A stretch of DNA of 64,000 nucleotides. Origin: Cheiracanthium punctorium (taxonomy: Eukaryota > Arthropoda > Arachnida > Araneae > Cheiracanthiidae). The notes beneath the pieces were generated by a model. The model was not told where the DNA came from. It worked only from the letters and a program-made list of their open reading frames with translations, and did not search any database. The stretch is taken from the NCBI GenBank assembly GCA_038373885.1, contig JAWZYV010014411.1, positions 16,667-80,666 on the forward strand, given 5' to 3'. The number at the start of each line of letters is the position of its first letter. The stretch's first letter is position 1. The translations under genes were made by a program, and so were the position numbers. Positions 15,004-55,679 of this stretch are shown here, piece by piece.

Positions 15004-16067
15004 TATTATAAAAGATGTCTGTGTGTGTGTCGGCGGCGTTACGGACAAACGGCTACACGTAAAAACACCAAATTTGGTACTCAGGAAGTTCTATACATGA
15101 AGTTGTGCACCTCGAAGCGATTTTTTCAAAATTCGAACTAGAATTTTTTTATTTCATGTTCTATGCGATTTTTGGCATTTTTTCTCACCAAATTCGTAAT
15201 AACGGCGAAAATTGCGGTCGCAGCAAAACGACATTTGTATCATCGGATAGAGGAGAAAATTTTCTTTTAAAAACAGTTTGTTCTGAATACGTAACATAAT
15301 TTACCGATTTATTGGAATTTTTTTACTAAGCATCTGTTTCGGCAAATTTTTTTGTAAAATAATTTTAAAACGGTCGCATCTTGAATTCTATCCGTCATAG
15401 CTTTTTGATATTTTGACAGATCGTGAAACATTATTTTCTTCCTCTTTTAAAATAAAAAAGAAAACATTATGTAAATTAGGTGATTTTTTACGAATTTTAA
15501 TGTAACCTAATGTTTAGAATTTAATAGCATCAACGGAGAGATCTCACGTCATTACATTAATTGATCACAGAACGAGATAATTTTGTTTGCGTTGCCCCAA
15601 AAAGTTTTTTTTCAACCAATCAAGTTTTTAAATGGGATATCGGAATTTCAATTCGCAAGTGAGGATCTATGACGTCAAATGCTTTAAGATACGTAAAAAT
15701 TACGCCACAATTTTAACGTATTTATCCCTACTCCTTTTTTTAACACAAGGTGGCGATATTTTGATTAAAACTTACTTTAGAAATAAACTGAGAAATTCAT
15801 GATTATTATTCCCAGGTAGCACAAAGATATTGACGAATGTCCACCGATATCGGGCAATATTTTGAAAGTCTCTGAATGTCATACATTGAATTTACGACAT
15901 CTGCCGATATTGGCAGATATTAATTAAAAGTAATCCTTTTTAAAAACATTTAAGAGAATTTCTTCAATTATTTTATAACCTTATCATTCAGAAATAACAT
16001 CCTAATATTTGTTTTTTTCATTTAGTCCAATTTTTTAGCGATATACTCATTTCAATGTACTATTTTA

Positions 16068-16211
16068 AACATTGGTGAATATCAGGGAATATCGCAGAAA
16101 TGATATTCTGTTTACAACATTGGTGAATATCAGGGAATATCGCAGAAATGATATTCTGTTTACAACATTGGTGAATATCTGGGAATATCACAGAAATGAT
16201 ATTATGTTTAC
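16068..16211 (+). repeat. Three tandem 48-bp repeats
   Basis: The unit begins aacattggtgaatatcaggg and ends attctgtttac; copies are 16068-16115, 16116-16163 and 16164-16211. Each contains the gaatatc/gatattc motif of element B's ends and could be a transposase-binding array or a promoter-proximal element of its gene. The reading frame across it is a by-product (48 is divisible by 3). Confidence 0.85.
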
Positions 16212-16217
16212 AACATT

Positions 16218-16344
16218 CAACTCGCGCATGCGTACTAATCGTTATTCTTGGCGTGCGGGAGGAACAGGAATTCCCAAACATCAACAACGTGGGAAGTCGG
16301 AGGCCGCCATTGAACTTGATTCAGGATACATTTTACTGATCGTC
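16218..16344 (+). promoter_or_regulatory. Probable promoter and 5' UTR of element B gene
   Basis: This is a short CpG-containing, GC-richer stretch in AT-rich surroundings, directly before the candidate start codon. It contains gcgcatgcgt, resembling an NRF1-type palindrome, and ggccgccatt, the reverse of a YY1-type site (aatggcggcc). These motif names rest on similarity only. Confidence 0.35.
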
Positions 16345-16376
16345 ATGGCAAAGGATATAGAAATATCTTCTAAAAT
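16345..16376 (+). CDS. Element B exon 1 (start codon exon)
   Basis: An ATG at 16345 opens a 10-codon exon plus two bases, ending at a consensus donor AAAAT|GTAAGT. The peptide begins MAKDIEISSK. Joining its two leftover bases to the exon at 19261 keeps an open frame into a THAP-like sequence, the main reason for calling it. Short and unsupported by homology on its own. Confidence 0.4.
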
Positions 16377-17295
16377 GTAAGTACATCTTTTATGTTATTT
16401 AACTGTCATTTACAGTGTTTTTTTATATATTGATTTATGTATTGTTTGTTTATATGATGCAACAAAGAATATGCTGCACATCAAATCAGTATTTTTTTTT
16501 TCTACAATTGTGTAAATATTTCGTGAAAGGTGTTTTTGTCTGCACTTTCTATGTTAGCGATATTTTGAAAGAGAACGTAAATATATTTGCCGTTGCGGCC
16601 ATTATGTGAAATATTCTTGTACATTTTTATTGTGATTGTTATAGTGCACAAAAAATACTGAGTTATTTTTGATATAGTGCACACTAAAAATATAATATCG
16701 AAGCTTTGGGGGGGGGGGGTGATTTCAGCTTCTTAGAAGCAAAGAAGTTTATCTTCATCGCAGTTTATATCAGAAGTTTTAATTTAGTCTCGGAACATAT
16801 TTCTAATTTTTTTTTTTGGGGGGGGGTTTGAAGCTCAACTTCGTGTGTTTAAAATTAATGTGAAGAAACACAAGAATTACATTCAATATTAAGTAGCTAA
16901 GAAAATTGGAGGAAATACAAATTGTTATTTTTTTTTATTGTTCAGTGGTTAGTCTAGTAGTTCGCAGCGTACTTTGAGTTTCATTTTGCCTGTGATATAC
17001 CATCATTTCAGGGTTGGGTTTTTGACTTCAAAAACTGGTTTTCGACATGACAAGCATCAAAATCTGGTTTAAACCGTCAAAAACTAATTCATAAAAGAAA
17101 GAGAACAATATGCAAACTAATTATGCAGTATATTGCATTAAACTAAATGCCTAATTAAAATTAATTATATTAAAATATAATAATTATACTAGCACATAAG
17201 TTGTGCTCACTAAGAATAATTAGTTTAATACCATTTATATAATACAAATTTATAAATTTAATGTATACAATATTATATATAAAAATTGTATATAT
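16377..17295. other. Probable intron of element B gene
   Basis: AT-rich; G-runs at 16708-16719 and 16818-16826 look like remnants of hAT MITE interiors, but no paired ends are present. Confidence 0.35.
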
Positions 17296-17494
17296 CAGTG
17301 GCACAGCCAGAAATTTATCATGTGTGTGTGTGTGGTTACAACTACTGCAACTCACATATATGTATACGTGTGTGTGTGATACGGGAGTGAAGAATATACC
17401 TTTTGTATGACGAAGAATATACTTCTTGTATGACAAAAAATATTCCTCATTGGAGGGGGTTGTGACTTCCCTATCCCCCTTGGCTACGCCACTG
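17296..17494. mobile_element. hAT MITE, CAGTGGCGTAGCC family
   Basis: The left end is CAGTGGCACAGCCA and the right end, inward, CAGTGGCGTAGCCA. The flanks are atatat-rich, so the duplication is consistent but not diagnostic. Contains TG dinucleotide runs (17321-17332, 17370-17377). Related to the elements at 20373 and 34063. Confidence 0.7.
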
Positions 17495-18538
17495 ATATAT
17501 GTAATTAATGAATAATATTCTGCAGTTTTTCAAAAATTTGAACTAAAGTATGGGTAAACATTTCCTAGAAGAAACATCAAGTTTATTTTTGGTTTAATCT
17601 AAATATCTAAATTGAAAAGGCTTTAACGAATAGCCAATAGCATAGCAATTTCACTCATTTAGACTAAAGAGATAAAGATCAGATCGTTTTAACTATCAGT
17701 ATACTAAAGTTTTCCATTCAAAATAGAATTAGTAAAAAATTTTGGGACTTGGATGCTATGAGTAAGCACATCTTTACAAAGTACATAATGGTCTTACTTC
17801 TTAAAAATAAATAAACCTGATAGATGTAAACAAAGTAAGCATTTTTCACTGATTATAGTGCTTTATTTTTCTAAATATTAATTGATTAATTCATTATAGA
17901 TATTGAAGTACAAGCTATTTTGCAATAAAGTAAAACACTTAAAAGTATTGTTTATTTTTTCCACTCATTATTTGAGGTTTTTGACAGTTTTTGACATGAT
18001 GGTTTAAACCATGGTTAAAACTGTCAAAAACTAGCCAACCCTGCATCATTTGTTTCCATCGCATAACTTTTACTACTTTAAAAATCTCAATTTTTTTTTC
18101 TGCTGGAGCCCAATCATGACCCACAGCAAATTTTAGTTAATGAAATTTGTAACACATATCTTGTATCTTGATTATCAAATTTATAATTTTAGAAAAGTTG
18201 GTCACGAGATATTTTGATATGGCGTGCCATACCTAAGATTTTATTTTGTTGAGGACTGTGTATCAAATTGTAACCTAAGTTTCGTCTGTAAGCTAAGTAA
18301 ACAGTCAGATATTCGGGGGGGGGGGGTGGCTTACAGTTGCCTTAACCACCAGTCTGGATACGTGCCTTAGTTCGTTATATACTGGGTTTGCTATAAGAGT
18401 TCGACTGTATAGGAGAGATGAGAAATGATGATCTATCATATAATGAAATATGGGTATTTTTCCCGTGGTTTTCTCCAGTTGTTGTAATGTGAATATTCCA
18501 TATTCCTTCTCGGTCCAAAGGCATTCTCCCCCCCCCCC
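17495..18538. other. AT-rich non-coding stretch (intron of element B gene)
   Basis: A G-run at 18316-18326 follows the phrase cagatattc. The phrases ggttttcgacatgacaagcatc (17038) and gacagtttttgacatgatgg (17981) suggest a diverged inverted pair around aaccatg/catgg-ttaaacc and aaaactg/cagtttt, so the segment 17020-18045 may be another degraded element. No gene supported. Confidence 0.3.
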
Positions 18539-18600
18539 CAGGGGTTGCATTTCAGTTTTTCATTTGGTTGTGCAACTGCACCCCCTATTTGCCACCCCTG
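18539..18600. mobile_element. Tiny hAT-like MITE remnant
   Basis: The left end is CAGGGGTTGCATTT and the right end, inward, CAGGGGTGGCAAAT; total length 62 bp. The flanks are C-runs (cccccccc / atcccccc), so the duplication is ambiguous. Confidence 0.4.
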
Positions 18601-19260
18601 ATCCCCCCATTACGCAGATAACTTTTGTAGTTTTGCTGTAATTAAAAGCAGCCTTGTGGACACTATTAACAGAGAATTGCATTATCTAAAATTATTCGAA
18701 CTCAGTTACAGACAGCGCTCGAAAGTTGTGGTTGTCTGCTTACCCAGGGCAGTCAGATTTTTAAACGGGCAAGTAAAACAAAGAATTCAGTTGCCCTTAG
18801 GGCAACCAAAAAGAAAAGAATTTTCTTTCATGGAAATTATCAAAAAGAGTAGAAAGAAAGAAACTACTATTGTTTTATCTTCAGTGTGCTCGTTTCCTAT
18901 TTGTTTACAAGCAGCCGATCACCGTCAAGAGAATTCTGCCATCATAGTCAAATCATACGTAGTCAAAAATCCATTTTTCATAGTAACGGCCGCAATTAAA
19001 AAAAAAAAAATTGTATAGCAAAAGTTGCATGGGCAACAAACTGTACTTGCAGGCGACCAAAATAATTTCAGAGATTGCCCGAGGGGCAGCACAAAAAGAA
19101 AACAAAACACAAGATTCTACCCTTAGTTACAGACATTGCGGATAAGTTATTTGTAAAAATATTTCATGTTAATGTACGGGCTATTTTGCTTCAATATTGT
19201 CATTTGTAAAACTTTTTGTTTTGACTTCACCCCCTTTTTAATTAGTTTTTCTTTCTACAG
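18601..19260. other. Non-coding stretch before element B exon 2
   Basis: A 120-codon open frame at 18656-19018 shows low-complexity, lysine-rich sequence and no family features; I do not support it as a gene. The last 25 bases are a clear pyrimidine tract ending ttctacag, the acceptor for the next exon. Confidence 0.4.
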
Positions 19261-19359
19261 AAAAAAGAAGTCCTCCCATGTTACGTGTGTCCTTTATGAC
19301 ACAGCTAGAGTGAAAGAACCTGAACGCCAATATCATAGGTTTCCGAAAGACCCAATAAT
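19261..19359 (+). CDS. Element B exon 2, degenerate THAP-like domain
   Basis: The 99-bp exon lies between ctttctacag and a consensus donor AAT|GTAAGT. In the phase left by exon 1 it reads KKKSSHVTCVLYDT, then EPERQYHRFPKDP. THAP domains begin with a C-x2-4-C pair and contain HRFPKDP-like sequence about 20 residues later; here one cysteine is kept and the second is lost (Tyr-Asp-Thr in its place). The correct phase across a 2.9-kb intron and the HRFPKDP match are the evidence. The rest of the THAP fold would need further exons that I could not identify. Confidence 0.5.
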
Positions 19360-20114
19360 GTAAGTGTTAATTTTAGTAAGAGTATACCATGTGTTACTCA
19401 TTTTGTAATGAAGGTATCAACAAATTCTTTATGTATGGTAATGTACAATGTAGGGATGCACCGAATATTCGGTATACTGGCAGTATACCTATTCGATTGT
19501 ATACCGTGACGGTTCGGCCAAATACTTAAATATTCGACAACCGAATAGTAAACAAATTTAAGTATTCCCCAATTAGTAAACAAATACATATTTTTTATAT
19601 CAGGAATGAAAGATATAGTATAGTACCACAGTACTAAATTGATTCAAGTTGTTACTAATATCACATGTGAATAAGCGTTAGAAACCCGTATAAAGTCCCC
19701 CTACCAAGGCACCCCCATCCTTGGCAGATAGTCCTAACGTAGCATTCCACAATCACACACAAAAAAAAAACAATATCCCAAAGAAATTAGTTTTAATGTA
19801 AGAGAAAACACTCAGATGTTAAATTTGAATTTTGTTGCTTTTCAGTTTTTCTTAAATCATGACACATTGCATTAACCTGTGCTATTACTAACTGATTTAA
19901 ATTTGAAACAGTAATCAGGAAAAAAAAAAACTCATAACATTAAGGTAATTAACTCCTAAAGTAATCAATATGCTTATTCATTAGGGATGAGAATTCATTT
20001 GTGGTGAATAGTCACTGTTATGCCATAAAAGTGTCATTTGTTTATATTTAAATTCTAGATTTCCCTATAAAAACAATTTTATGGAAATTTACCTTCCATG
20101 GCCAACCTAAAATT
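19360..20114. other. Intron-like stretch with a lone hAT end
   Basis: At 19451 a hAT-type end, TAGGGATGCACCGAATATTC, starts a roughly 110-bp fragment rich in ttcggt/accgaa; no partner was found. The rest is AT-rich with no gene. Confidence 0.4.
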
Positions 20115-20290
20115 GGTACTTACGTATTATCCCGGTGGTCATTCCAGCCAAACTATTTTTCCGTCAAACGAGTTGCCAAACTGTTGCCCCAATCGTATTC
20201 AAAACCATTAATAATTTCATATGTCCAGCATTTCTCTTGGCAAAAAAAATTGCTCGTCTTGGCAGACTGCCGGGATAATACGTAAGTACC
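20115..20290. mobile_element. 176-bp MITE with perfect 21-bp TIR and 8-bp TSD
   Basis: Both ends begin GGTACTTACGTATTATCCCG when read inward, and the flanks are identical ctaaaatt (20107-20114, 20291-20298). The interior repeats ttggca/tgccaa. The perfect ends suggest recent activity. Superfamily unclear: an 8-bp duplication fits P, hAT or Merlin, and the GG start is not hAT-like. Confidence 0.85.
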
Positions 20291-20372
20291 CTAAAATTTA
20301 TCACTAACAGTCTGTTATCTGTTATTACTTTTTTTTTTCTCTACCAAGTCTAAGCAAATTTTGGGTGCCACT

Positions 20373-20503
20373 CAGGGGCGTAGCCAAGGGGGGGGTAGGG
20401 GGGTCATCCCCCCCTATGAGAAATTTTACACGTATACATATATATGAGTTGTAGTAGTCGTAACCCCCCCCCTCCCTATGAAAAGTTTCTCCCTACGCCC
20501 TTG
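20373..20503. mobile_element. hAT MITE, CAGGGGCGTAGCC family
   Basis: The left end is CAGGGGCGTAGCCAAGG and the right end, inward, CAAGGGCGTAGGG. Identical 8-bp flanks gtgccact (20365-20372, 20504-20511). Interior shares cgtatacatatatatgagtt and gtagtagtcgtaacc with the copy at 34063. Non-coding. Confidence 0.9.
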
Positions 20504-20960
20504 GTGCCACTAATAATACTTAACTCAAACTAAAACCCAATCTAATTAAAAATTATTGGATCTGGGGATCAAACTTGCTGGTTAGTATTGTTTCATTAAT
20601 TAATTAAAAAACTAGTATAAAACAGCATACTATACCATTTTGATATGTTTTGAAATGAGCAATGTATTTTTTAATTAATAGTTTTTCCAATATCAATGGT
20701 TTAAAATATTCATCAATTTTATTTTTTTTCTACTGTCAATTATTTTAAGAGTAAAAGAGAGTAACAAAAAGTCAAATCTGATTCTTCCGCTAATTATTAA
20801 TTTAAAAATGCAAAATTTCCTGATTTTGATGGGGGAAACTTACTAATTTCATTCTGATAATTTAAACCTTTAAGCAAACCATGTGGTTAAAATATTTTAG
20901 CTAATTTTATCGTGTAGCAATTACATGTCTGAAAAGCTTTCTTTTTTCTTTCTTTTGTAG

Positions 20961-21034
20961 CTGCTGCTGCTTTGAAGTTTAAGGAGGTTTTGGCAAATAT
21001 GTTTGGTCGAAGTTTAGCTGAAGCATCTGATTAG
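20961..21034 (+). CDS. Element B last exon candidate with stop and poly(A) signal
   Basis: A pyrimidine-rich acceptor (ttctttcttttgtag) precedes a 74-bp frame reading AAALKFKEVLANMFGRSLA to a TAG at 21032-21034. AATAAA follows at 21129-21134. Its phase needs one base from the previous exon, whereas exon 2 leaves two, so at least one exon between them is missing or undetected. No family recognised. Confidence 0.35.
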
Positions 21035-21501
21035 AATTAAAAAAAGATTCGTGATTCAGATTGTTCCTTAACATTTGTTATTGTGGACAATTATACTGAA
21101 AACTTATAAAGATAATTTTGTTTTTAAAAATAAAATATGAAAATCTGTTTCATGTAATTTTTTGGAAAGAAAACTTAATTTGAAGTGTGTTTATAATTAG
21201 GGATATTTAAAATATTAAAAATGTACAGTACTAATTTTTTACCAGTGTTAATCCTTTTCCAGTAAGCTGTTTAAAGCGCATTTTGTTTTGCATGAATTAA
21301 AACTTAAATTAGTTTTTAAAATTCACAATTGTGCAATTTTAAGCATTACTCAATTTTAATAGCATTTCCAATTTAATGAAAATCTTAAAATATAGCCCAA
21401 AAAAGATTTTAATCCATTTATTTCAAATCAAAATTTATTTATTTTAATATTTTCTTCTTCTGTTGTTTACAACCAATAATATTTGCTTTTCGATCAAGTT
21501 A
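21035..21501. other. 3' UTR-like and non-coding stretch
   Basis: Begins with the presumed 3' UTR and poly(A) signal; then AT-rich sequence without supported features. Confidence 0.35.
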
Positions 21502-21922
21502 CAGTAGAACCCTGATTATCCAAGGTGGTCAGAATCAAACATGCCTCGGATAACACTGACAATCATAATCACAGTTTTAAACATACAGATCATGTCCAGA
21601 CTTCGAAACGATTACAGTCAAATGTAATTCGCTATAAGAATGCTATTTTATAAATTCTACAGAAATAGTGTAATAAAATTGCATTACTTCAGAATTTTCG
21701 GAATATTTGATTTCACTAAGATCAAGATTACTACTTTTTTGCAAATTTAACAGTAACCGGTCATAATCCTTTTAGGAATTGGCCATAGTCGTAATCCTTA
21801 TCAATTCTTGTAATCAATTGCAGATGGATGTGTAATCATCCGAAGTCTGATCATGAATCTTTTACATTAACCAAGGTGTCACATTGAATATCATGGAGCA
21901 TTGCATAACCAAGGTTCTACTG
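21502..21922. mobile_element. Tigger/pogo MITE
   Basis: The left end is CAGTAGAACCCTGATTATCC and the right end, inward, CAGTAGAACCTTGGTTATGC, with TA on both sides (21500-21501 and 21923-21924). About 420 bp, non-coding. Confidence 0.85.
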
Positions 21923-22743
21923 TACTTTGAAACATTATAAAGAAATGTATTTAATCACTCGTAACTGGAATTATCATTCACCCCTCTTGTAATTTTTAAT
22001 GAAATCCAAAGGCTTAAGAGATTAACTTTCAATACAAATATATTGAAAATGAATTCATTGTATCTAAGATGCATTAGTGCTTCATTGAAATTAATATAAA
22101 TTAGGGGGGGGGGAAATAACCTCCAATGGCAAATTACATTTTGTGGGAAACGTTTCAAGGTAAGTACAGAGTAAAAAAAAAGGAATATGAGCATATTACT
22201 GGAATTTTTTTTTCTTTAATAGTTATTATTTTACTCGAAGAAAAGCTCTATTTATACTTCCTGCCCCCTCCCTTTTCCCTTTACACATATGGCAAACATT
22301 TATTGTATACTTTGAAATTGGTCATAACTCCCACAATCTTTCTGAAAAATTCTAGATAAACTGTGTTGACCAAAGAAAAGAGTATGCAGTTTGATTTAAC
22401 ACTGAGGTTGTTATAGCAGAGCTGTATTAATTAAAAGTATATTGTCTTTGTGGATTTTATGAGTAGTGGCTACTATAAAATCCAAAGTAAATTTTATATT
22501 CTATAGGTGATTATAAAATAGCTGCCTATAGTAAAAGTTTCAACTATTTGTTCAAGCTTTTAATTGCACTCTACAATATAAATTGCTGCAAAATTTGAGT
22601 ATTAAAGGCCTTTACGTTCTCCAAAAGGTGAGTCAAGAATGTGTGTGAAGAACGATCTTTTAGCACCATCAAATGCAAACTCGTACAAAAATTTTTTTCC
22701 CAGTCATTAAAAAAAAAAAAAAAATGTTTCCGCTAACTTATTA
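21923..22743. other. AT-rich stretch, no gene seen
   Basis: No paired repeats or credible ORF. G-run at 22105-22114. Confidence 0.35.
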
Positions 22744-23089
22744 AAGCATCAGGTCAATATTGTATGCTTGGACTCCTGTTTGTGAGGAAAAATTTTGATT
22801 GTAAAAGAAATTGGGGGGGGGGGGAGGGGACTTGACTAATTAATATTTCACATGTAGACATTTTTTTGGTTTGAAATTATAAAGTCAATGTCAAAAAGAA
22901 ATGTCAAAAGAGAATTTTTTAATGCTTTAACATAAGCATTAAAAAATTCTCTTTTGAGTTGTAATTTCAAACCAAAAAAATGTCTACATGTGAAATATTA
23001 ATTAGTCAAGTCCCCCCCCCAATTTCTTTTACAATCAATATTTTACCTCACAAATAGGAGTCCAAGCATACAATATTGACCTGATGCTT
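22744..23089. repeat. 346-bp near-perfect inverted repeat (fold-back)
   Basis: The left arm begins aagcatcaggtcaatattgt and the right arm ends acaatattgacctgatgctt. Arms are about 170-185 bp with few differences: a G/C homopolymer length change and a 16-base extra in the left arm near 22885-22900. They are separated by only about 6 bases near 22928. The young, long hairpin sits inside element B just before its right motif array. Confidence 0.9.
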
Positions 23090-23435
23090 ATAGGGCTGAT
23101 TGGAGAAACATGAAAACAATATTCAGAAATGTTGGAAACCAATATTGCTCAATGTCAAAAAATAATATTTAGGAATATCAGAAAAAGATATTCCTGGATA
23201 TCTGAAAACAATATTCAGAAATGTTGGAAACTAATATTGCTCAATGTCAAAAAATAATATTTACAAATATCAAAAAAAGATATTCCTGGATATCTGAAAA
23301 CAATATTCAGAAATGTTAAACTGATATCTCTGAATGTCAAAAAATAATATTCAGGAATATCATTTAGGGGGGGTCCATTTAATATTGCCCAATATTGTAA
23401 TTTTGATATTGGGCAATATCTCTGTGCTACCTGGG
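23090..23435. repeat. Right-end palindromic motif array of element B
   Basis: A unit of about 110-120 bp containing acaatattcagaaatgttgg and gaatatcagaaaaagatatt is repeated at least twice, followed by gatattgggcaatatc and the CCCAGG terminus. The same motifs occur at the left end. Confidence 0.75.
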
Positions 23436-26114: not shown

Positions 26115-26182
26115 GAACATGGGGCCCCTTTGTAACATTTGCTACGGGCCCCGCGCTGTCTTAATCCGGCACTGCACCCAGA

Positions 26183-38439: not shown

Positions 38440-38701
38440 CCCAGCTAGAAAATGTTTGCACTTCTTGTGCAGAAAATTTGCATATAAAGTGAATATTTTG
38501 AATACTTTGAAAAGTATACACTTTTTGTGCACAATTTTTGACAATATAAAATATTCACTTTTTGGTATGCATAAAAACTGTATATAATTTGCACAAAAAG
38601 TGTATGCTTTCAAAATATTAAAAAATATCCACTTTTTATGCACAAATTATACACAATCTATACTTTTTTTTGCAAAAAAAGTGAAGACATTTCTAGCTGG
38701 G
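38440..38701. mobile_element. CCCAG-ended MITE with TGCACAAAAAGTG motif array
   Basis: Ends CCCAGCTAGAAAATGT and (inward) CCCAGCTAGAAATGTC. The interior consists of at least six forward and inverted copies of a cactttttgtgca-like motif. Flanking bases (aaat, tata) do not show a clear duplication. Inserted into the third 160-bp tandem unit (after gcttaaat, where other units continue ttttgt). Confidence 0.75.
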
Positions 38702-41165: not shown

Positions 41166-41686
41166 CCCAGATAGCACAGTTGTTCATTTTATATCCATTT
41201 CTGATCCATCTCGCCCATATAACGTCCATGTCTATAGATAGACATCCAGAAGACAATATTTATGGACATAATCTGGAAAATCCAGAAACTGTCCATGAAT
41301 AGACCAAAATTAGACATTTAATTTCCAGAGTAAGTCTTTTTTATAGACGTGTCCCAGATAATCCATAGTACGTTAGTGAAATGGCAAGAAGCATGGATGG
41401 AGATGTCCAAGACTTGACCTAAGTAGGTCCATATATAGACGTTGATGTCCAAGACTTGCCCATACTAAGTCCATACGTGGACTTAGTATGGGCAAGTCTT
41501 GTATACGTAAGCACGTCCATAATTATGTCTATATAGATGTCTATAAGATTTCATATGGGCGACCTATAGTGCCATATTGATCTAAAAGAGACGAGAATCC
41601 GACGAATCGTGGATGTTTAATGGACATGTCAACTTGTCTATATGACGTCTTCTGGGAGGGTTCTGGACAAGTTTGTGCTATCTGGG
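41166..41686. mobile_element. CCCAG-ended MITE with GTCCAT/TAGAC motif array and AT TSD
   Basis: Ends CCCAGATAGCACAGTTGTTC and (inward) CCCAGATAGCACAAACTTGT; flanked by at on both sides (41164-41165, 41687-41688). The interior is crowded with gtccat/atggac and tagacat/atgtcta motifs. A perfect hairpin with 23-bp arms, aagacttgcccatactaagt + cca, is at 41451-41500 (loop tacg). Confidence 0.85.
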
Positions 41687-43917: not shown

Positions 43918-43919
43918 TA

Positions 43920-43964: not shown

Positions 43965-44367
43965 CCCAGCAAACACACAACTGCCCGCAAAATGACGGCC
44001 GGGTACCCGTCGTGCTGGCGAAGTGCCGTATACCGGGAGCAAGATAGATTGCCATCGTCTGGAAGTCACTGGAGTACCAGTGCCTGAAAAGTGCATATGC
44101 GCCGGTACATAACTAGTAACGGCGAACTGCCATGTGTCTGTGACATGCACAAAAAAGTTAACGGCGTGGTACTGCTTAAAATGTACCGGACCAGCACTAT
44201 TTGGCAGTAATGGGCCTGTATATATTTCGTAGTGTTGGCATAAAATTTCGTTATTTTAATTAAATAATATTGTCTCACATTCATACGGTGTAGAAGTGTT
44301 AGGGGATATAAGTTCCGGGCACCCAAAGGCAGGGTCACTGCTAAGATTTTTTTTTTGAGGGGGGGGG

Positions 44368-44617
44368 CAGTGGCGGATCCAGACATTTTTTTGGGGAGGG
44401 GCTAAATTTTTTTTAAAAAAAAGCTTATTTCACCCAATTAAAATGTACTATAATTCAAAATTTTAGTCTAAATCAATGTGCATGCTTTTGGGAGGGGCTA
44501 AGTAATAAAATATGATCATTTTAGCATTTTAAAGTGTATAATAAAGCAGAATGTTACCCTTCAGCAATCTTTTGGGGGGAATGAAGCCCCCTAGCCCCTA
44601 CCCTGGATCCGCTACTG
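44368..44617. mobile_element. hAT MITE, CAGTGGCGGATCCAG family
   Basis: Ends CAGTGGCGGATCCAGACA and (inward) CAGTAGCGGATCCAGGGT, flanked by G-runs on both sides (target in a poly-G). Interior shares gaatgttaccctt with the solo right end at 46670-46764. Confidence 0.75.
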
Positions 44618-46800
44618 GGGGGGGATGTAAGGGGATAAGTTCATATTGTGCCTTCAAATATTTTAGTACTAAAAACTAAAATAATACAAACGAGTTCAGT
44701 ATGCTATAAAAATATTTACTACACCGACAGTGTAACCTCCACTCTGTATATGACAGTATATAACCCCCCACTGTGTACAGAATTATGAATTTTAATCTTA
44801 ACATTTTTATAATTTATATTAATATTTTACGATTTTGCTAAACTTTTCCTGAAAAACATATTTGGAGACTTTTTTCTACGTTAAGCCCCTTTTAAAATCT
44901 ACCGAATTAGGGTGCAGAAATATGTTAGAGAGTATTAGACGAAGACCAGTCAGGGTTTTGCATGAGAGCTCAGCTCCTGTAGTCTTTTTTTCTTCAGAGA
45001 ATTTTAGATTAAATTAAAATTTTTAACAGCCTACATAATTGCTTCTATTGACATTTTTTTATTCAATTAAATATAGCAGTGGTAAAACAAAAGATAAATA
45101 TAAATTAGGTAATTAATGCTCAAATTTACAATAAAACAAATTAGAGCTCCTGCAGCTATTTTGTTAGAAATTCAGCAATGAACCAATATTTACATATTAT
45201 ATTATTTCATTCTGTTTCATTACTCCTGAATCAAATGTTCTATTTCGCACCCTTTAACGGCCTCCTTACGGAAAGCAAGAGGTCAAAAATATCTACCCAG
45301 GGTCAACTAATATCTCACGGTTGCACGATAAGGCACCAAGAATTCGAACTGTTATCGCGGATTTGGCTATATTAATTCAGATTATTTATACAAAGTACAA
45401 ATGAATTTTTTATGCATTTGAATATTGGCGAGTTTTACTGTCGATTGAGTGTAACCATTCTTTTTTCTCTTGATGTTTCATTTCGTTTTGCAAATCTTGA
45501 AACCTTGGGCGGGAAGCCAGTTATGAAATACGCTTTTTAGGATAAAGTTTTGGTTGTTTTTGCAGACTTTCGAGAAATTTATTGCTATAGACTAGTGAGA
45601 TATCTCTATTAGGAGCAATAATAATTATAATAAGATTTGCTTCTGCAGTGATATCTTGCTGGTTATGGATACAGAAAGAAGATTTTACGGTTGGATTTAA
45701 GTTTTTAAACAGTCAGGAAAATATTACAGGTAAATTTTTACTTTTACTGTTTTTAATGTACAATGGACTTTTGCAACTAATTTAAAGATTAGGCGACTTT
45801 TTGAACCAAAAAAACGTCATTTTCATACTATTTTCATGTTTTACCTTACTCCAGCGACTCATTTGAAAATCTGGTGTTGGTTTTTGTCAACTCCCTTTTT
45901 TTTTAAAGCTGATACTGAGCTTTCGGAAAACATTATAATCTTTTTTTTTTAATCGTGCTATAAAAATAAATGTATTATATGTTCTGTTATATATATATGA
46001 CGTTTTTTAAATTTATCATTTTATTCAATCCTTCTTAAATGAAGCTAAATTAAGCATGTTTATTTCTTAACTACAAAATCATTCAAAAATGTTACTACTT
46101 TGGGAACTAAAATTGAGAAAATGGCTACTAAACCGGTGACTTTTTTTAAGTCGGTGATGTTACTAGATACTTATTTGAGTGTATAAAAGTACTTTCCTCC
46201 ATATTATTTGAATCATGCAGTATACAACAGATATAGATACAGAAAATTTCTTTTCAGAATAGCTAAGATTTAAAAAATAATTTGATCTAAACAAAATGTA
46301 CAAGAAAGCAAAATGTTACCCTAAAGTTATGTGTGTAATCATAGTACAATTTTATTTATTATTACTTCCTGTAAGATTTTGATTAGTACATACACACACA
46401 CACATATATATATATCAACCATAAAGTATTATAACTCATTTATAAAATCTCTAACTCTGAAATATTGAAATTAAACTGTTTATAAATGATTTTATGTTGG
46501 TTCTGAAATGTGTTACCGACTTTCTCACAAAAAAATCTTTTGCGACTGCAAATTTGTAAGAAAATTGCAGTTTATGAAAACGGCACACAATTCACTAATG
46601 ATAGGCGCACATAATTTGCAAACGATTGACCAACAGATTTTGCTGTTTTTTATCTTTCATTTATGTTGTTTTTTATCTTTCAAAATGTTACCCTTAAGGA
46701 ATTTTTTTTTTCTGGGTGGGGGTGGGGATTGATGAATAAGCCCCCTACCCCGAATCCGCTACTGGCTCATATTTTAATTATGGCAGCATTACTGTAAATA
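44618..46800. other. AT-rich interior of the CCCAG element; solo hAT right end
   Basis: A second hAT right end of the CAGTGGCGGATCC family lies at about 46680-46764 (inward CAGTAGCGGATTCGGGG); its left end is not identified. CA/TA microsatellite at 46388-46413. No gene supported. Confidence 0.45.
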
Positions 46801-47126
46801 AGCACTAATCCCGTACCGTACCATTACCTTGTAGTCACTGTTAAGGTACCAGGCCAGTGCCTTTATTTTTAATAATAGTCGGCACCCGGCCGTTTCATTT
46901 CGGGCATTATAAACTTAATGGGCCAGTGCCTTTATTGTGAGTAACGGCCGGCACATGCAGTATGCCAGCAGAGTGCCGTTGCCTTCCCAGGCTTCTGGCA
47001 AGGTACTTCTCGGGCGACCACTTTTGGTACGATTCAGTTACTTTTTGCAGTGCCGGCCGGTACTGGACGTAAAGGCAGAAAGGCACTGGCAAGGTACTCC
47101 GCCAGCAGGTGTGTGTTTGCTGGGCT

Positions 47127-47810: not shown

Positions 47811-48300
47811 TAGAGATGAGTTCGGGCTCATTTTTTGAAGCCCGAGCCCGAGAACTTTTAATCCGAGCCCGCCCGAGCCCGAGCAATATTATTTAAATCG
47901 GAGCCCGAGCCCGAAAAAAAAATTCAATTACTTCATTGATAGAATACAATAAATTTTGCTGTTTGTGCAAATTAACGACAAATATAGTTTCAAATTCTCA
48001 ATGCACTTTCTAATACTTTATATCCATGTTTATCGAATAATGTCTGATCTGATGACTAACTAAGCAATATAAGACGCTTTTCTGAAATACCCAAAGAGCT
48101 TCACGCACCTTCTAGGCACCCGTGTCGCTTATTTTTTTTATAAGTACTTTTATTTTCCTCATGAATCACTTTTAAAATCTGTTTCAAGGAGTATGTTCAA
48201 TAAATGAGAAATTTTTCACGAGTCCGAGCCCGAATGCAATTGGGAATTACAGAGCCCGAGCCCGGTTCGGGCTTCTCGGGCTGAGCCCGTCTCATCTCTA
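47811..48300. mobile_element. hAT MITE, TAGAGATGAG family, exact 8-bp TSD
   Basis: Ends TAGAGATGAGTTCGGGCTC and (inward) TAGAGATGAGACGGGCTC; identical flanks gtgctcac (47803-47810, 48301-48308). Many gagcccgagccc repeats near both ends. 490 bp, non-coding. Confidence 0.95.
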
Positions 48301-48308
48301 GTGCTCAC

Positions 48309-48497
48309 CAAGACAAACGCGGCAACTGGACTTTTTCTCAGTTCTCTACTGACATTCAACATATCAGCGGAATGGACAATGTAGTCGCTGATGCACTATC
48401 TCGAGTCAATATCTTCGCGTATGAGCAGCCATCCATTGACTTCACTAAAATGGCTGCTTTGCAAAGTACAGATGAGGAGTTGCAAGAGGTATTGGAG
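48309..48497 (+). pseudogene. Gypsy RNase H end / pre-integrase linker
   Basis: After a frameshift near 48337, reads FSTDIQHISGMDNVVADALS, the universal end of Gypsy RNase H (HISGKDNVVADALSR), then STDEELQEVLEQ. Interrupted by a hAT at 48498. Confidence 0.9.
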
Positions 48498-49949
48498 CAG
48501 TGGCGGCTCGTGGGATACAGCAAGTACAGCCGGGCTGCACTTGAAATTATCAGCACATACTTTAAAATAATTTATTCTACTAACTTTCTTAAATTGAGAC
48601 TAGAATTATGGAATTCCTATGGTAAATTAAAAAAAAAATAAAAAAAACGTATTGTAGTAACAGCCGGATCGCTCATTCAGAAAAAAACCCCTTTAATCTT
48701 CCCGCAATTCAACTGTGAAAATCGTTAGTACAGCCGGGGCCACGCGAGATAGCAATAGCAAGTTTCCTCTTCCGGGCCGAAACCTTGCTCTTCATGACGT
48801 CACAGCAGACACCCTTTTTCGAGCGCTTAGTCCATAGGATTAGTATAGAAATCGGAGGTGAAATTAGTTTATTTTAATTATAGTAAATGGATATAAATAA
48901 ATGTAGCTTGCAGAATGACTGAAATGTGACTTACTGATTGTAATAATGCTATATTTGCAAAATGTAAACAATCATTTTTTTTTTTTTTTCTGGAACAGAA
49001 TATTTTGGAAGGTCTGGAGAATACAACTTTTCTTTGAAAATGCTAATTCTTAAATTAATTATATTTTTATTATTCTAATTACTAAAGGTGTTAAGCATCA
49101 CAGAAGCAGTAAACTAAAAAAGTAAAAGAGACACTATTTGATTAAAGAAACAATTTTATTGAACATAGATAAATACTTCAATTAGTAAATGGCAAATCAA
49201 TAATAATGATCATTTTTAAATATCGATTACATCAATAAATTATATTATTTATTAACAGTTCTTTTATGTATAATTATAAACTTTTTTAAAATTTTTATGT
49301 AAAAGGGAATGGAGTGTGATGTTTTGAAAATGATGAAGTAAAATTTAGCTTTCTAATAACAAATATACATTTAGGATAAGGTCGTAGTTATGAAATAATA
49401 CTATATCATAAGGCCACTGTGAATCAAAATAACAAAATAAAACCTCGCATAACAATTTTAATATTTTCTAATTACGAATTAAAAGTTCTAATTCGATCAC
49501 TATGTTGAAAAATTCCGAAATTTAAATAGAATAATTTAATGTTTTAAGAATATTTGGAGTTAGAATAAAAAAAAGATTTTTTTTTTAATTTAAATTGAGG
49601 AAAAATCATGATGGAACATTTTACACATGAAGAAATTTATTTTTATACGCACTAAATTCCAAGTTAGTGTTTTAATTTCTTGAAATAGAATAATTATTGT
49701 ATAGATGTGAAAAAGCATTTAGTATAATAAAACAATTGCCTTTTTTACGAATTGAATGTAAACAAAAAAATTAACCAATATCTTTATTTTTTATATAATT
49801 GATAGTACAGAGATTGATGGTGATAAAAGTTTTTTCTTACTCAATTTTCACTTCGTTGGCAAAAACAAATTTTCATACTAGGAAAGTAGAGTGGATAGTT
49901 TTCTTTTTGAATTTTTTATTTTAATTTTATCATTTCTCATTTTACTATA

Positions 49950-50416
49950 GTTATTTTAAAAAATATTTGATGAGAGAGACAAACAATATTTCATTATATT
50001 TTCTATACTATTTCTACAACCACATGTATTCAGTGGAATCATTGATAAAATATCAAATTTTTCGAAGACTAATTGTTCCAATACATTTTTTTGGATCTTG
50101 CAATTCAGAAATACATATTCATATTTATAACTAATAGATTCAAATAGATATACTAACAATTCAAAAATGTAAAATATGTCTCGATAACAATGTCAATTAA
50201 CAATTTTGTGGGCCATTTTAAATTTCCTCTATCAATAAGTGAAAAATATTCTTTTATTTTAGTACCATCAACTTCGTAGTCCAGATTTTTTTCAGTGATT
50301 AAAATTTTATGGCATTCTTGACAGCTAATTTTTTTACAGGTTTGATAACCAACATACCCTGCTATGAAAACAAGAACAGAACGTTTATTAAAAATTATTT
50401 CAATTTTAGAATTCAA
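49950..50416 (-). pseudogene. P-like transposase, C-terminal region
   Basis: Two overlapping minus frames. The first (50416-50153) reads KRSVLVFIAGYVGYQTCKKI, then SCQECHKIL and a YEVDGTKIKEY segment; the second (to 49956) reads EKFDILSMIPLNTCGC. THAP9/P-like transposases end with an IAGYV..K..K...C..C segment of this kind. It is joined out of frame to the core near 50440, where several hundred residues of the family's catalytic and GTP-binding insertion region are missing. Confidence 0.65.
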
Positions 50417-51255
50417 AGTTTCATATAAAATCTCAGGGATGGATGTTTCTCCCTGAAACTCTTCTGGGGGTTTTTAGAAAACACTGATGTAATCATGAAA
50501 TCTTGAATGGTAGTAGCCTTTTCAACAGAATTATTAGCTGTATCAATAATTTCTCCGCATTTATACGAAATTGAGGGATTAATATATATCTCGTCAAGTA
50601 AAAGGGAAACAACTTTTTCACTTTCTTTAAGTAATTCAGATTTCTTTTTCAAATAATACAAATGGTTGCTATTATCAAGATTACTATGACTTTTTAAAGG
50701 GGAAGAGAGTTTTTTTAGGTAGACAGGATGAGGCAAGATTAAAATTTTTGAGTCACGAATAAAGTTATAAGCATTTTTGTAACTGAAATAAAATTTAGCA
50801 GCAAATAAGATGTAATTGGATGAATAAATATATTTTTTTGTATCTAAAAGAGAGATTTGTTCAATAATAATATCAATATAAAATGTTCTCTTACCTTCAT
50901 CACACTCCATTTTCCTTTTATATTCATTAAGGATATCCATTACATGGTTTAATTTGTCTTTAAAACAAAAATTATCATTATTATAACTGGCTACTAGGTT
51001 TAACAAACAATCAAATTTCGTCCATCTATCACATTTATTTTCAGTTTCCAATATAAATTCGAATGATTTCGAATTTAATAAAATGTTTTCATGCCAAACT
51101 TTGATAGTAAGATCATAGTTCACAAGAAATAAAACAGAAATTTTTGGAGCATCTTTTAAGTCCACTTTATAAATTAAAATAGAATCAAGTTGTTCTATAA
51201 ACTGCCAGTATTTTCCCAGCTTTGAGGCGAATCCTTCTTTAAATTTTTCAAAAGA
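50413..51255 (-). pseudogene. P-like transposase core (Tnp_P_element), truncated
   Basis: A 280-codon minus-strand frame reads KYWQFIEQLDSI, a helical Lys/Asn/Leu-rich region, FAAKFYFSYKNAYNFIRDSK, LPHPVYLKKL and VVSLLLDEIYINPSISYKCG, then ATTIQDFMITSVFSK. The LPHP...L...L..DE......SYK..G order is the conserved start of the P-element/THAP9 RNase H-like domain; the Asp in LLLDEI would be the first catalytic residue. It ends at SFREKHPS, where an internal deletion joins it to the C-terminus. Asn/Lys-rich composition matches the AT-rich surroundings. Confidence 0.85.
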
Positions 51256-51281
51256 TTAAATTTTGTCCAGCATACACCAGT

Positions 51282-51671
51282 TTAAAAAATTTTCTTCGTC
51301 TCTTTCTCTGATTTTTTTTTATCTCTATCAGAAGGAGATCTTCTTTTATGAGGAGGCTCACTTGAGAGATAGGAAGGCTGATTATGGAATATCGATGGGT
51401 AAGCATCTGCTGTCAATTTCGGTCTGTCTCTGGTAACGGTCAAAATGCTTCCATCATCTCTCACAACACTGTCTTCACGAATAATGAATTCATATGAAAA
51501 GTGCTGGATGCACACGACTGCTGTTTTGCTGGGATTAAAATTAGCTCTGTTGATTTTTTTAATCCAAAGCTGGCGTCGTGACTCATCTTTCCGGAATAAA
51601 AAAGATGAAATGTATCCAGATTCTTTGTTGTAATTAGATCTGCATCCAGGGACACAACAATTTCTACCCAT
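51282..51671 (-). pseudogene. P-like transposase THAP-domain exon
   Basis: A strong acceptor (T-rich tract, ttctcttacag on the minus strand) precedes ATG at 51671-51669. The frame reads MGRNCCVPGCRSNYNKESG, LWIKKINRANFNPSKTAVVC and IQHF: C-x3-C then C-x2-H with the usual W, P and AVVC..HF residues, a complete THAP zinc finger. A basic tail (HKRRSPSDRDKKKSEKETKK) follows and the frame ends at 51282. Unlike the other two THAP exons here, the finger is intact. A 5' non-coding exon probably lies between 51680 and the right TIR. It could be spliced or frameshifted to the core at 51255. Confidence 0.9.
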
Positions 51672-52400
51672 CTGTAAGAGAAAAAAAAAAAAAAGAAAAA
51701 AAAAAGAAGTTAGACGATATACTTTGACATACATATTTTATATTTTCATTTTAACTATATTTACTACAAATTTTAAAACAGGATTAAACATTTAATTTTA
51801 AAACTCCATTTTACATTATATGTAAAATATTTAGAAATAAGTAATGCATAACTGTAATAATTCATAATGAATGCAGATTAAATTAGCATTAATATAGCAA
51901 AATAAGCAATTACTTTCTATATAACTACTTAATAGAAATACTTATGATAATGTAAATGACAGTTTACGTAATACATGCATGCACATTTACAATTAGAAAT
52001 GCTAGTCAAATTTTTGCAATAGTACGTGGTGTTAGTTTTAATTTTTGAAACTTATATGACTGCTAGAAATTACCAGGCTTAGCGAAAATATACATGCATA
52101 GCATTAATTCATATAAACTAAATAACACAAAACTGTAATTACTTACTTTATAATCTGAAAATTTCTTGTCCAAAACTCATTAATTTGAAGCAATTTACTA
52201 TATGCAGCAGCTACCTAGTTGAAGATTAAATAGCGTAGATTCATTCAGACACACGAGCAAAGCAGAGAAGCTTTCTCCTGAAACTGGTTTATCTCCAGTG
52301 CTGCCGGTTGTCTGTTGTGACGTCACAGTCCTTCTTCCGAACTAGTATTACGGCCCGGTAAAGGAAACTTGCTTGATCTCGCGTGGCCCCGGTACAGCCC

Positions 52401-52447
52401 AGGCCTCCGAGAGGGGAGAAAGATTCTTTCTCCTCTCTCGGAGGCCT
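52401..52447. repeat. 47-bp near-perfect palindrome beside the P-like element
   Basis: Left arm aggcctccgagaggggagaa + aga, right arm its complement with one mismatch, one-base spacer (52424). The direct repeat ggtacagccc flanks it (52391-52400, 52449-52458), as if it were a tiny inserted hairpin. Confidence 0.85.
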
Positions 52448-52667
52448 CGGTACAGCCCTCAGCGCTCATTAGGGAATTGGCAGCACCGTTGCCTTGGTAA
52501 CGAGTACGTAAGCAGTTTCTCCGGCTTAGGATAGCATAGGGTGTTTTAGCTAAGACACAGCCGAAGAAAGGTTTTCTCATTTTTGTTGCAGTAGTGAATT
52601 CGACGAACTGATTGGCTCGAACGGGAAGTGAGGGAGAGAATAAAGACACAGAATATATGTTCTAGCC

Positions 52668-52938
52668 CGGCATTTCTCAACCTGAGGGGGTCGCGCCCCC
52701 CGCAGAACGCTTGCAGGGGGGGGGCGAGAAAAACTATAGAGCAAGTAGTGATGCATGTTTTTAAAAAATCATCTTATTCTCGTTTTTACTCAAAAATATA
52801 TCCATTTTCGCTTAAAATGGTCATTATTAAAGATTAAAAAACTCAATGAATGCTGAAAAAAGTGAGGGAGGGGCGCCACTGTAAGTTAGCGTTTGTTGGG
52901 GGGGGGGGGGAACGACGTTAAAAGGTTGAGAACCGCTG
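52668..52938. mobile_element. hAT (Charlie-like) MITE with exact 8-bp TSD
   Basis: Ends CGGCATTTCTCAACCTGAGG and (inward) CAGCGGTTCTCAACCTTTTA; identical flanks ttctagcc (52660-52667, 52939-52946). G-runs at 52718-52725 and 52899-52910. Confidence 0.9.
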
Positions 52939-53069
52939 TTCTAGCCCATTCTAACGGAAACAATAGGTTTTTTTTTTTTTTTTTTTGTCTGGGAAGGTTG
53001 AAAGTTTTTAGCCTTATTTGTTACTGTGTCCATGTGTTATTGGAATCTATGATTTAACCGTTTTGAAAC

Positions 53070-53712
53070 ATGGAGCCCCGTTATTATCCAGTTTGCGTCT
53101 TGTTTGAAACTCCGTTTAACACATGGAAAGAAGATAATAAACGACAACCACTAAAAGAAAATAGACCGACACCAAAATTGTCCATTCATAAGAAAAAAGC
53201 AGGTTCGTCTCAGCATGGTCGTAGCTTCCATTTCTCATGATATGCACTATTCTCGTGGCTATGGGGCAGTTTTTATTTTTTTTAAATGTTTTGTTCGTCG
53301 TGTTTAATCGTTGAGATAAAAAAGACCGTTTGGAATGGTACTGGATAGGATGGATTAACCACCATCACACGAGCACGTAAAACACATGAAAGCTCAATCG
53401 AGCATTTAAAAAATTCTTTAAAAATTTAAGGAGTTGATAGGAAGTGGGAGCTAAATTGCTGACGCATTAAAGGAAAACTCTCGACTTTATATTGCTGAAT
53501 TTATCAAGAAGGTAAGCCTGAATAGACGCTTCATGCAAGTACCCATCAAAGCAGTATTGTTTTTAAGTAAGCAGGAACTGGCATTAAGAGGACATGGCGG
53601 GCGAGAAAATTCTTTAAACATGGGGAATTTTAAAGAGCTTTTAAAATTAATGATATCTGAATTAAAACAACGCCTTTTTATGAGGACATCACTGACTGAT
53701 TCGCAAGTTTAA
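53070..53712 (+). pseudogene. hAT transposase remnant (TTF-type zinc finger and N-terminal half)
   Basis: From an ATG at 53070: a PVCVLFETPFNTWK-like stretch resembles the TTF finger (C..F....F.NWK) of ZMYM/TTF-type hAT proteins, followed by a basic HKKKAGSSQHGRS end. After breaks, 53494-53712 reads FIKKVSLNRRFMQVPIKAVL, FLSKQELALRGHG, NMGNFKELLKLMIS: the family's conserved vLFLarQglALRGH...NrGNFLELLkl. A TAA ends it. The RNase H-like catalytic part is missing. It is on the same strand as, and inside, the hAT at 48498-54054, so it is that element's own gene. Confidence 0.8.
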
Positions 53713-54062
53713 AAGAAAAGAGGATTTATTTGACTTATAAAAAATAAGTAAGTTTTCTTTTTTTCTTTTACTTCTTTTCTTCTCAAGTTATCATTACAAA
53801 AGAAAATTCTCAGGAAACTTCGAATCAGACACGGATTAATGAAATTTTGAGGATAGGAGCGGCTGGTTGAAATTTATGTCCATTTTATGGAAGTAAAATA
53901 GGATCTCTTACATTTTTATGTAATTTCTTTTTTTTTTATCCTGGGTGAGGGCTTAATCCGCCAGCTTTCGAATTCAGTAACAAAGATTTCCTAGGGGGGA
54001 GGGGGGTCACATGTTTCCGGCTGCACTAACATTTTTTACCACGGGCCGCCACTGTATTGGAG

Positions 54063-54801
54063 AACCCTGCATCTACTCTGGACATTAAACACATGTCGGT
54101 AGGAGAGTCTGACAAGACTGTGCTTCAGTGCGATGTATCTACTGGTCGCATCAGACCGTTCGTGCCTCAAGCAATGCGTCGGCAAGTGTTCGAACAGCTG
54201 CATAACCTAGCACATCCTGGTGCAAAGGCCACGACACGGTTAATTGCCGAACGTTTTGTATGGCCTTCGATGAAAAAAGACATTCCCCACTGGGTTCGAA
54301 CTTGTATCCCGTGCCAAAAGTGTAAAGTACAGAGTCACACTAAAAGTCCAATTGGATCATTCGAGATACCAACTGCACGTTTTCAGCATGTCCATATAGA
54401 CCTCGTAGGCCCTTTACCACCATCAAAAGGGTATCGGTACTGCCTAACATGTGTGGATCGTTTTTCTAAATGGCCGGAAGCTATTCCGCTCACGGATATT
54501 TCAGCGGAAAGTGTTGCGGAAGCTTTTTATTCGGGGTGGATTGCTAGATTTGGGCCACCCATGCGACTGCGGATCAAGGAGCCCAATTTGAGTCTTCATT
54601 ATTTTCCGCTTTGATTAAACTTCAAGGTGTCACGCGTATTCGTACGTCGCCATACCATCCCGCAGCGAACGGGCAGGTTGAACGTTTTCATAGACAGCTC
54701 AAAGCAGCCATCATGGCTCATGACACAGTAGAGTGGGCTCGAATCCTTCCCACTGTCTTGCTGGGAATAAGAGCAGACTGGAAGGAAGACCTGCGGTCAA
54801 C
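54063..54801 (+). pseudogene. Gypsy integrase, zinc finger and catalytic core
   Basis: Reads FEQLHNLAHPGAKATTRLIA ... CIPCQKC (HHCC zinc finger), FQHVHIDLVGPLP (first Asp), TCVDRFSKWPEAIPL (second Asp); after a one-base frameshift near 54565 it continues AQFESSLFSALI with the Glu, then SPYHPAANGQVERFHRQLK. All three DDE residues are present. Ends at TVLLGIR...DLRST, where the CCCAG element is inserted. Integrase inserts the cDNA into nuclear DNA. Confidence 0.95.
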
Positions 54802-55679
54802 CCCAGACAGCACAGCAAACTTGCAGCAAGCTTGATTTATCAAGTCAGCAAACTTGAATTAAGCTTGAAAATTTCAAGCGTGTAAGCTTAATGCAAGCTT
54901 GAATCAAGTGTTCTAGTAAGTTTTAAATGACAGTTATCGTTAGCACGCCGTTTTCTGGCGAACCGAACCGAAGTGGGGTTTTATCCCCAGCGTGTCATTA
55001 AAGAGTGTCTTTTGAAAAATGAAATAAAAAACTCCAAAAGGAGAAATCGTAAACAGTTCGTAAAGTCGGACAATGCCTACAGATGTTAAATCGTGGCAGA
55101 TCGAAAAAAATAAAAATGCAGCGAAGCTGCGAAAAATAAAAAGGAGAAGAGGAAAGGAAAACTAACGCGCTCTTCCGCCCGGGTTAGAAACACGGACTCC
55201 ATTGAGCGGGTTGCTCAGTTGAGACCATAAAGATGTTAAAAAAAAACAGGACGTCGATCGAAAATGATGTTGAAGTTGTAAAGAAACAGAGTGACCCTCC
55301 AAAACAGGAGATTGAGAAAAATCCGAGAATGGTGAAAAAAAAAAAAAAATAGCGCCCTATGTCGCCCATAGAGGGTGCCACTATAAAGCGACGCTCTCGA
55401 TCTTCCACTATTGATTTGGCCTGTTGATGTGCTTATTTTATTTTTCCATGGGATTAATCAAAATTAAAATAATGTTATGTGTGATTTAGACTCTACTAAT
55501 ACGGAATAAGCATAATATAAGCTTAAAAGCAGCACAAGTTTTAAAACTTTCAATATCGCGATTCAAATGACTTCTCCAAGCTTGCTGCAAGCTTAAAATA
55601 AGTTGAACTGTCAAGCTTGTATTAATATGTCAAATTCAAGGAAATGTCAAGCTTGATTCAAGCTTATGTGCTGTCTGGG
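54802..55679. mobile_element. CCCAG-ended element with CAAGCTTG motif array, AC TSD
   Basis: Ends CCCAGACAGCACAGCAAACT and (inward) CCCAGACAGCACATAAGCTT; flanked by ac (54800-54801, 55680-55681), whose single-copy removal restores the integrase frame. Palindrome caagcttg or close variants occur at least five times near the left end and five near the right. The middle (54950-55450) has a GC-richer stretch without recognised protein. Confidence 0.85.

Follow-up and report, generated by a model that had tools for sequence, protein, structure and literature searches.

The window analysed here is a stretch of 64,000 nucleotides of the spider Cheiracanthium punctorium (contig JAWZYV010014411.1, positions 16,667 to 80,666; our contig C9362 of the 2.53 Gb genome searched). 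It contains five sequences, E1 to E5, that open with CCCAG, close with the complementary CTGGG and are filled near their ends with short repeated motifs. Four of them (E1, E3, E4 and E5) are very probably gene-poor cut-and-paste DNA transposons of TRC (Transposon Related to CACTA), the animal branch of the CACTA/EnSpm superfamily known from plants; they are non-autonomous as far as seen and would be moved in trans by a Transposase_21 protein with the help of a TNPA-like protein binding their motif arrays.

The CCCAG-ended elements and their target sites

The five elements and their arrays are:

E1, 15811..23435, 7,625 bp: CCCAGGTAGCACA ends matching at 13/13 positions, no 2-bp duplication, no transposase seen
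E1 left array, 15811..16217: AATATC/GAATATC motifs; positions 16064-16217 are internally repetitive (unit ~47 bp)
E1 right array, 22986..23435: AATATTG/GAATATC motifs
E2, 38440..38701: 262-bp near-hairpin with CCCAGCTAGAAA ends (12/13), flanks AT/TA, inside a larger repeat
E3, 41166..41686, 521 bp: CCCAGATAGCACA ends, duplication AT, an array of ATAGAC/ATGGAC motifs, strong self-complementarity
E4, 43965..47124, 3,160 bp: CCCAGCAAACACACA ends (15 bp), duplication CT, arrays of GTACC/AGTGCC occupying the outermost 280 bp on the left and 350 bp on the right
E5, 54802..55679, 878 bp: CCCAGACAGCACA ends, duplication AC, AAGCTTG arrays with motif starts at element positions 26-94 and 776-858

Reading the sequence confirms each of the five coordinate pairs proposed in the initial annotation of the window, together with its ends. 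The termini of E1, E3 and E5 are CCCAGGT/AT/ACAGCACA at both ends, with the differences confined to positions 6-7 of 13, and the terminal inverted match is 13/13 in E1, E3, E4 and E5 and 12/13 in E2. Scanning the window for CCCAG...CTGGG pairs within 10 kb (threshold at least 10/13) gives 15 pairs, four of which match at 13/13 (E1, E3, E4 and E5) and one of which is E2 at 12/13. The same scan with 19 permuted cores yields 72 pairs in total (3.8 per core), including one at 13/13, which is E4 shifted one base inward, and three at 12/13. Because permuted cores also reach 12/13, the ends of E2 taken by themselves are unremarkable.

Exact 2-bp duplications flank E3 (AT), E4 (CT) and E5 (AC), and removal of E4 or E5, with one copy of the duplication kept, restores a Gypsy reading frame; both points had been made from the first reading. 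The empty site of E4 reads FDDVLVASSTQDEHMQ in the reverse transcriptase frame and that of E5 reads KEDLRSTAAEMVYRT in the integrase frame, each open across the junction.

The arrays were assessed by counting over-represented 6-, 7- and 8-mers on both strands against 200 dinucleotide shuffles, with six controls. The top words differ among the elements: AATATC/GAATATC at the ends of E1 (GAATATC 12 vs 0.33 expected), AAAAAGTG in E2, ATAGAC/GTCTATA in E3, AGTGCC/CCGGCCG/AGGCACTG in E4 and AAGCTTG in E5 (13 vs 0.30 expected). The claim that each element has its own motif vocabulary near its ends holds under shuffling. The best 6-mer score lies above 200/200 shuffles in 5/5 elements, and with 7- and 8-mers eight of ten tests exceed all shuffles, the E2 7-mer and the E3 8-mer each being equalled once. 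Among the controls, ctrlB is above all shuffles at lengths 7 and 8 and E1mid at 6; the ctrlB 8-mer score (6.7) is higher than that of E3 (6.5), and the remaining two such control scores are below those of the elements. All 13 AAGCTTG of E5 start at most 103 bases from an end, all seven AGTGCC of E4 at most 270, and 12 of the 14 GAATATC of E1 lie within 450 bases. Folding compared with shuffles gives z values of -10.4 for E2, -10.0 for E3 and -7.3 for E5 (the last from 20 shuffles).

Copies across the genome

The end sequence CCCAGRYAGCACA has 19,988 genome matches (10,041 forward and 9,947 reverse) against 88 (43 + 45) for a backward-read control, and CCCAGCAAACACACA has 5,709 (2,846 + 2,863) against 0 + 0; both counts may include duplicated assembly. 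Exact 2-bp duplications flank 26 of 36 genomic copies examined (three sets combined). The first set consists of 24 distinct CCCAGRYAGCACA pairs, two of which (L029 and L048) have a common right flank and are possibly not independent. Seventeen have an exact 2-bp duplication (chance ~2e-14), none extending to 3 bp, six have none and one matches at 3 bp only. The duplicated dinucleotides are TA and AT (three each), AA, AC and CT (two each) and TT, GG, TC, GT and TG (one each). Four further E1-type copies comprise two with exact duplications (TA, TA) and two without, and the exact duplication is found in seven of eight short CCCAGCAAACACACA elements (chance ~1e-7).

For the left 590 bases of E1, the best 40 of 490 candidates are 98-100 % identical. 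One copy (L053) is 99.6 % identical to E1 over 2,089 bp and has a different flank, so some of the movement was recent. Twelve E1-like left ends that were collected represent nine distinct insertions as judged by flank, L052 being the window's own copy. Three pairs of E1 copies on different contigs have common flanks (L051/L052, L058/L062 and L060/L061), which may be uncollapsed haplotypes or recent duplications in the assembly. Another copy (L063, G000:C7717:281500-287500) is 98.6 % like E1 and diverges at element position 2936; what follows may be an insertion or reflect another internal organisation. The copy L050 (G000:C85:1335499-1343019), 6.9 kb long and with CCCAGACAGCACA ends, holds what by eye is a mariner-type insertion, as well as a short minus-strand open frame at 3964-4296.

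The history of E2 is different in kind. CCCAGCTAGAAAWTGT, which matches its left end, has 418 genome matches (222 + 196) against 0 + 1 for the control, and 323 of these places (171 + 152) are preceded by the same seven bases, CTTAAAT. E2-like copies on contigs C214 and C53 both have the longer left flank CTGCTTAAAT; the right flank of E2 is also found on C214, and the stretch read on C53 differs. Because the left flanks are shared, E2 has multiplied mainly within a larger repeat, and it may be one old insertion or no insertion at all. Five mobile elements had been proposed: E1, E3, E4 and E5 stand, and E2, a CCCAG-ended segment carried within the larger repeat, is doubtful as a separate mobile element.

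Pairing of end variant and array

Array motif and end variant (positions 6-7) correspond in 24/24 elements found by their ends alone (23 two-ended elements and one GT-type pair, C3; one 68-bp pair was left out). In 21/21 elements with AC-type ends, one of which has GC on the left, the outer 250 + 250 bases hold 9-19 AAGCTTG and at most one ATAGAC. Both elements with AT-type ends hold 5-9 ATAGAC, 7-8 ATGGAC and no AAGCTTG; two relatives of E3 (L049 and L046) have array motifs identical to its own. In the GT-type pair the outer 400 bases contain AATATC 12 and 7 times, and neither AAGCTTG nor ATAGAC. A further 12 GT-type left ends have 12 AATATC each, a circular result as they were recruited by likeness to the first 590 bases of E1. 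Random 500-bp stretches of the loci hold on average 0.43 AAGCTTG, 0.91 AATATC and 0.12 ATAGAC; their maxima (10, 11 and 4, respectively) probably come from stretches that touch elements. Pairing of array with end is expected of families, though its exclusiveness is striking.

The end of E4 behaves in the opposite way, because the same 15 bases enclose unrelated motif sets. In E4 itself the outer 280 + 350 bases hold 14 GTACC, seven AGTGCC and no AACGTT or TTCAGA. CCCAGCAAACACACA also closes short hairpins, and the eight that were read (L088-L095, 68-111 bp, on contigs C1, C44, C64, C74, C139, C214, C340 and C424 of G000) have 1-5 TTCAGA, 0-3 AACGTT and no AGTGCC; two GTACC in one of them (L089) straddle its flank. 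Among 100 CCCAGCAAACACACA matches listed, adjacent matches within 12 kb form 27 pairs: 23 of 68-111 bp, one of 242 bp and three of 2.9-4.2 kb. To our knowledge, hairpins of 68-111 bp are among the smallest of their kind. It is possible, and we put it forward only tentatively, that end and array are separable modules, related end-cutting transposases serving many families and the array being an exchangeable address label; arrays would then be swapped between families and not drift slowly.

Probable assignment to the TRC branch

TRC elements have ends that start with CCC, 2-bp direct repeats and Transposase_21, and their members include SmTRC1 of Schistosoma and elements of Tribolium castaneum and Aedes aegypti (PMC1636069). 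The Tribolium end is CCCTAGTAGCACCGAATATTTGTAAAA (CCCTAGTAGCACCGAATATT...) and that of Aedes CCCAGTCAAC (PMC1636069). The Hydra element EnSpm-4N1_HM, with a CCCAGCCAACATTGAC end and a 2-bp duplication, has been assigned to TRC (PMC4298943). The elements described here have inverted ends beginning with CCC and duplicate 2 bp of target (26/36 genomic copies, 3/5 window elements, two empty sites). The window elements also carry subterminal arrays of direct and inverted motifs, a trait of plant CACTA elements.

The genome has Transposase_21 genes of its own. PF02992 (Transposase_21) matches at 10 places, and the protein of one gene (L082), which scores 8.2e-9 against PF02992, above the cut-off, has 60 genome matches, some of which keep an open frame as long as 833 codons. 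Its motifs DG...WPI, CxxC and DYMHSVLLG are close to those given for TRC transposases, the residue preceding the D of the last motif being different (PMC1636069). Among named public proteins, the best matches to L082 belong to Araneus ventricosus, a spider (42-46 % identity), which by itself would suggest a chelicerate host. We infer that these Transposase_21 genes move the CCCAG-ended elements and that an array-binding protein serves them; because the one transposase gene read with its surroundings has no CCCAG ends, the TRC assignment rests on ends and duplications.

Several observations weigh against this assignment. Exact 2-bp duplications are absent from 10 of the 36 genomic copies and, in the window, from E1 (TT on the left and AT on the right in an ATT run, where 3 and 6 bp match) and E2 (AT on the left, TA on the right). 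Missing duplications are usual for TRC, because just 7 of 14 SmTRC1 copies have the 2-bp repeat (PMC1636069). The resemblance to published TRC ends covers few bases and was judged by eye. No transposase gene was found within any CCCAG-ended element. Scanning E1 in its three plus-strand frames detected no Pfam domain and thus no THAP, and six frames of the 4.2-kb copy L031 likewise gave no Pfam domain. No inverted 11-mer starting with CCCAG occurs in 11.7 kb around the L082 gene (3.96 kb to the left and 4.35 kb to the right), the sole gene examined together with its flanking DNA, nor was any array-binding protein found.

The interior of E1 has three exon-like pieces, all on the plus strand and with splice sites placed by eye:

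Putative exon 1, 16345..16376, +: MAKDIEISSK..., GT donor
Putative exon 2, 19261..19359, +: AG acceptor and GT donor, phase fitting exon 1
Putative last exon, 20961..21034, +: AG acceptor and stop, phase mismatched to exon 2

Given the phase mismatch of the last exon, one exon would be missing. The second exon is unchanged in three of four other copies and has one change in the fourth, and the last exon has 12 extra bases in four other copies. Selection on a gene remnant was considered and dropped: long unchanged runs occur throughout E1 (at least 75 bases at 15 places in 5 kb). Two exon peptides gave no convincing match among 120 listed TRC-like proteins (best E 0.10) and no Pfam family. The three pieces could be a putative TNPA-like remnant.

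Alternative assignments

Another lineage of the CMC clade (Plavaka-, Mirage- or Chapaev-like, or undescribed) that had arrived at CCCAG ends by convergence is unlikely. Duplications in the CMCT clade span 2-5 bp, with 2 bp in PlavakaA (PMC12730594), and no transposase was seen physically linked to the CCCAG ends, both of which would suit such a lineage. However, PlavakaA elements end in TGT..ACA and CMCT elements mostly in CA..TG (PMC12730594), whereas the combination of CCC ends with 2-bp duplications is specifically reported for animal TRC elements (PMC1636069, PMC4298943).

It is highly improbable that the CCCAG ends converged among unrelated superfamilies that resemble one another solely in duplication length. 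The ends of E4 and E2 do differ from CCCAGRYAGCACA past CCCAG, and no array motif was seen in common, but E1, E3 and E5 differ solely at positions 6-7 of 13, and the duplication length is equal in E4-type and RY-type copies.

Even less credit can be given to membership in ISL2EU, or in a sister group within PHIS, with movement by a THAP-DDE transposase and a YqaJ partner. This was the assignment suggested in the initial annotation, of which the conserved CCCAG ends, the 2-bp duplications and the family-specific arrays stand and the ISL2EU or THAP-based affiliation does not. The 2-bp duplication is common to both, and THAP domains are common in the genome (a PF05485 search scored 150 matches among 3,727 candidates). 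However, ISL2EU duplicates AT within A|AT|T, usually begins with GG and encodes THAP-DDE and YqaJ proteins (PMC4482050), whereas here ten different dinucleotides are duplicated, AT in 3 of 17 cases, and the ends begin with CCCAG. No THAP-DDE or YqaJ protein was found in the plus frames of E1 or in L031, the genome not having been searched for YqaJ or an ISL2EU transposase. A genome search with PF16064 (DUF4806) gave zero matches, its controls being silent as well. The THAP route to the transposase was abandoned: of 13 THAP loci fetched, the three longer ones (L077-L079; open frames of 897-975 codons) were read, and these are P-like by eye, with no CCCAG inverted repeat seen.

P elements duplicate 8 bp and Kolobok elements TTAA; the same 8 bases stand on both sides in 0/24 pairs and TTAA on both sides in 0/24 pairs, which goes against both superfamilies.

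Separately, the window holds a P-like element at 48740-52386, within a Gypsy element, that has CCACGCGAGAT inverted ends. It contains a THAP domain at 51282-51737 (E 1.2e-15), and its P-transposase matches are weak and below the cut-off.

Proposed mechanism and implications

Under the TRC assignment, full elements elsewhere in the genome would supply a Transposase_21 protein that cuts at the CCCAG ends and, on inserting the element, duplicates 2 bp of target whose sequence varies. A TNPA-like second protein would bind the short direct and inverted motifs inside the ends and join both ends. The ends would stay conserved while the arrays shift with each family's own binder, because cleavage would be governed by the ends and pairing by the array. 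In plants, TNPA is the protein that binds the subterminal motifs, the conserved ends are the presumed site of transposase action, and both motif and binder change from family to family (PMC2613891); the arrays of Jozin are built of 12-bp units (PMC8978399). Co-evolution of array and protein, which had been suggested for the transposase, is plausible; what binds the array in plant CACTA elements is a second protein, TNPA, and not the transposase (PMC2613891).

We regard these elements as new families of the known TRC/CACTA type. The arrangement of near-shared ends with family-specific arrays is known in kind and unusually clear here, and the end-array pairing within one genome is the aspect that merits further study. 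The subterminal arrays of CACTA elements are thought to evolve in step with a rapidly changing protein that binds them. Comparisons across many plant genomes may, it is expected, reveal the pace of this co-diversification (PMC2613891). In the single animal genome studied here, two end types account for ~25,700 matches, five array vocabularies have been seen up to now, some copies are nearly identical, the smallest hairpin measures 68 bp, and TRC-like transposase genes are numerous and divergent, so that co-diversification of array and binder becomes testable within one species. The end/array sets should likewise be of use in tests of end and array evolution. TRC-like elements can be mistaken for ISL2EU when judged by duplication length alone.

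Comparison with known systems

A literature search on CCCAG ends with subterminal repeats and on spider CACTA/EnSpm elements listed no publication describing the present families, although the part on CCCAG ends led to the Hydra relative (PMC4298943). The PHIS element ISL2EU resembles them in its 2-bp duplication and differs in its AT target, GG ends and THAP-DDE and YqaJ proteins (PMC4482050). The TRC elements of Schistosoma, Tribolium and Aedes have CCC inverted ends and 2-bp duplications as here, and the Tribolium end shares TAGCAC with E1 and E3; the described elements have Transposase_21 (PMC1636069), and no transposase has yet been found between CCCAG ends here. For SmTRC1 a repeat inside the end and a tandem-repeat region are mentioned, unlike the arrays found here, and the words 'subterminal' and 'palindrom' are absent from that paper (PMC1636069). 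Spongebob/EnSpm-4N1_HM of Hydra and insects is alike in its CCCAG start and 2-bp duplication, and no intact transposase was recovered for it either; its end continues differently, as CCAACATTGAC, and no array is described in the portion of the report available (PMC4298943). Plant CACTA elements (En/Spm, Tgmt*, Jozin) share with the spider elements short ends and subterminal arrays whose direct and inverted motifs vary by family (PMC2613891, PMC8978399). They are set apart by a CACTA core and a 3-bp duplication, in contrast to CCCAG and 2 bp here.

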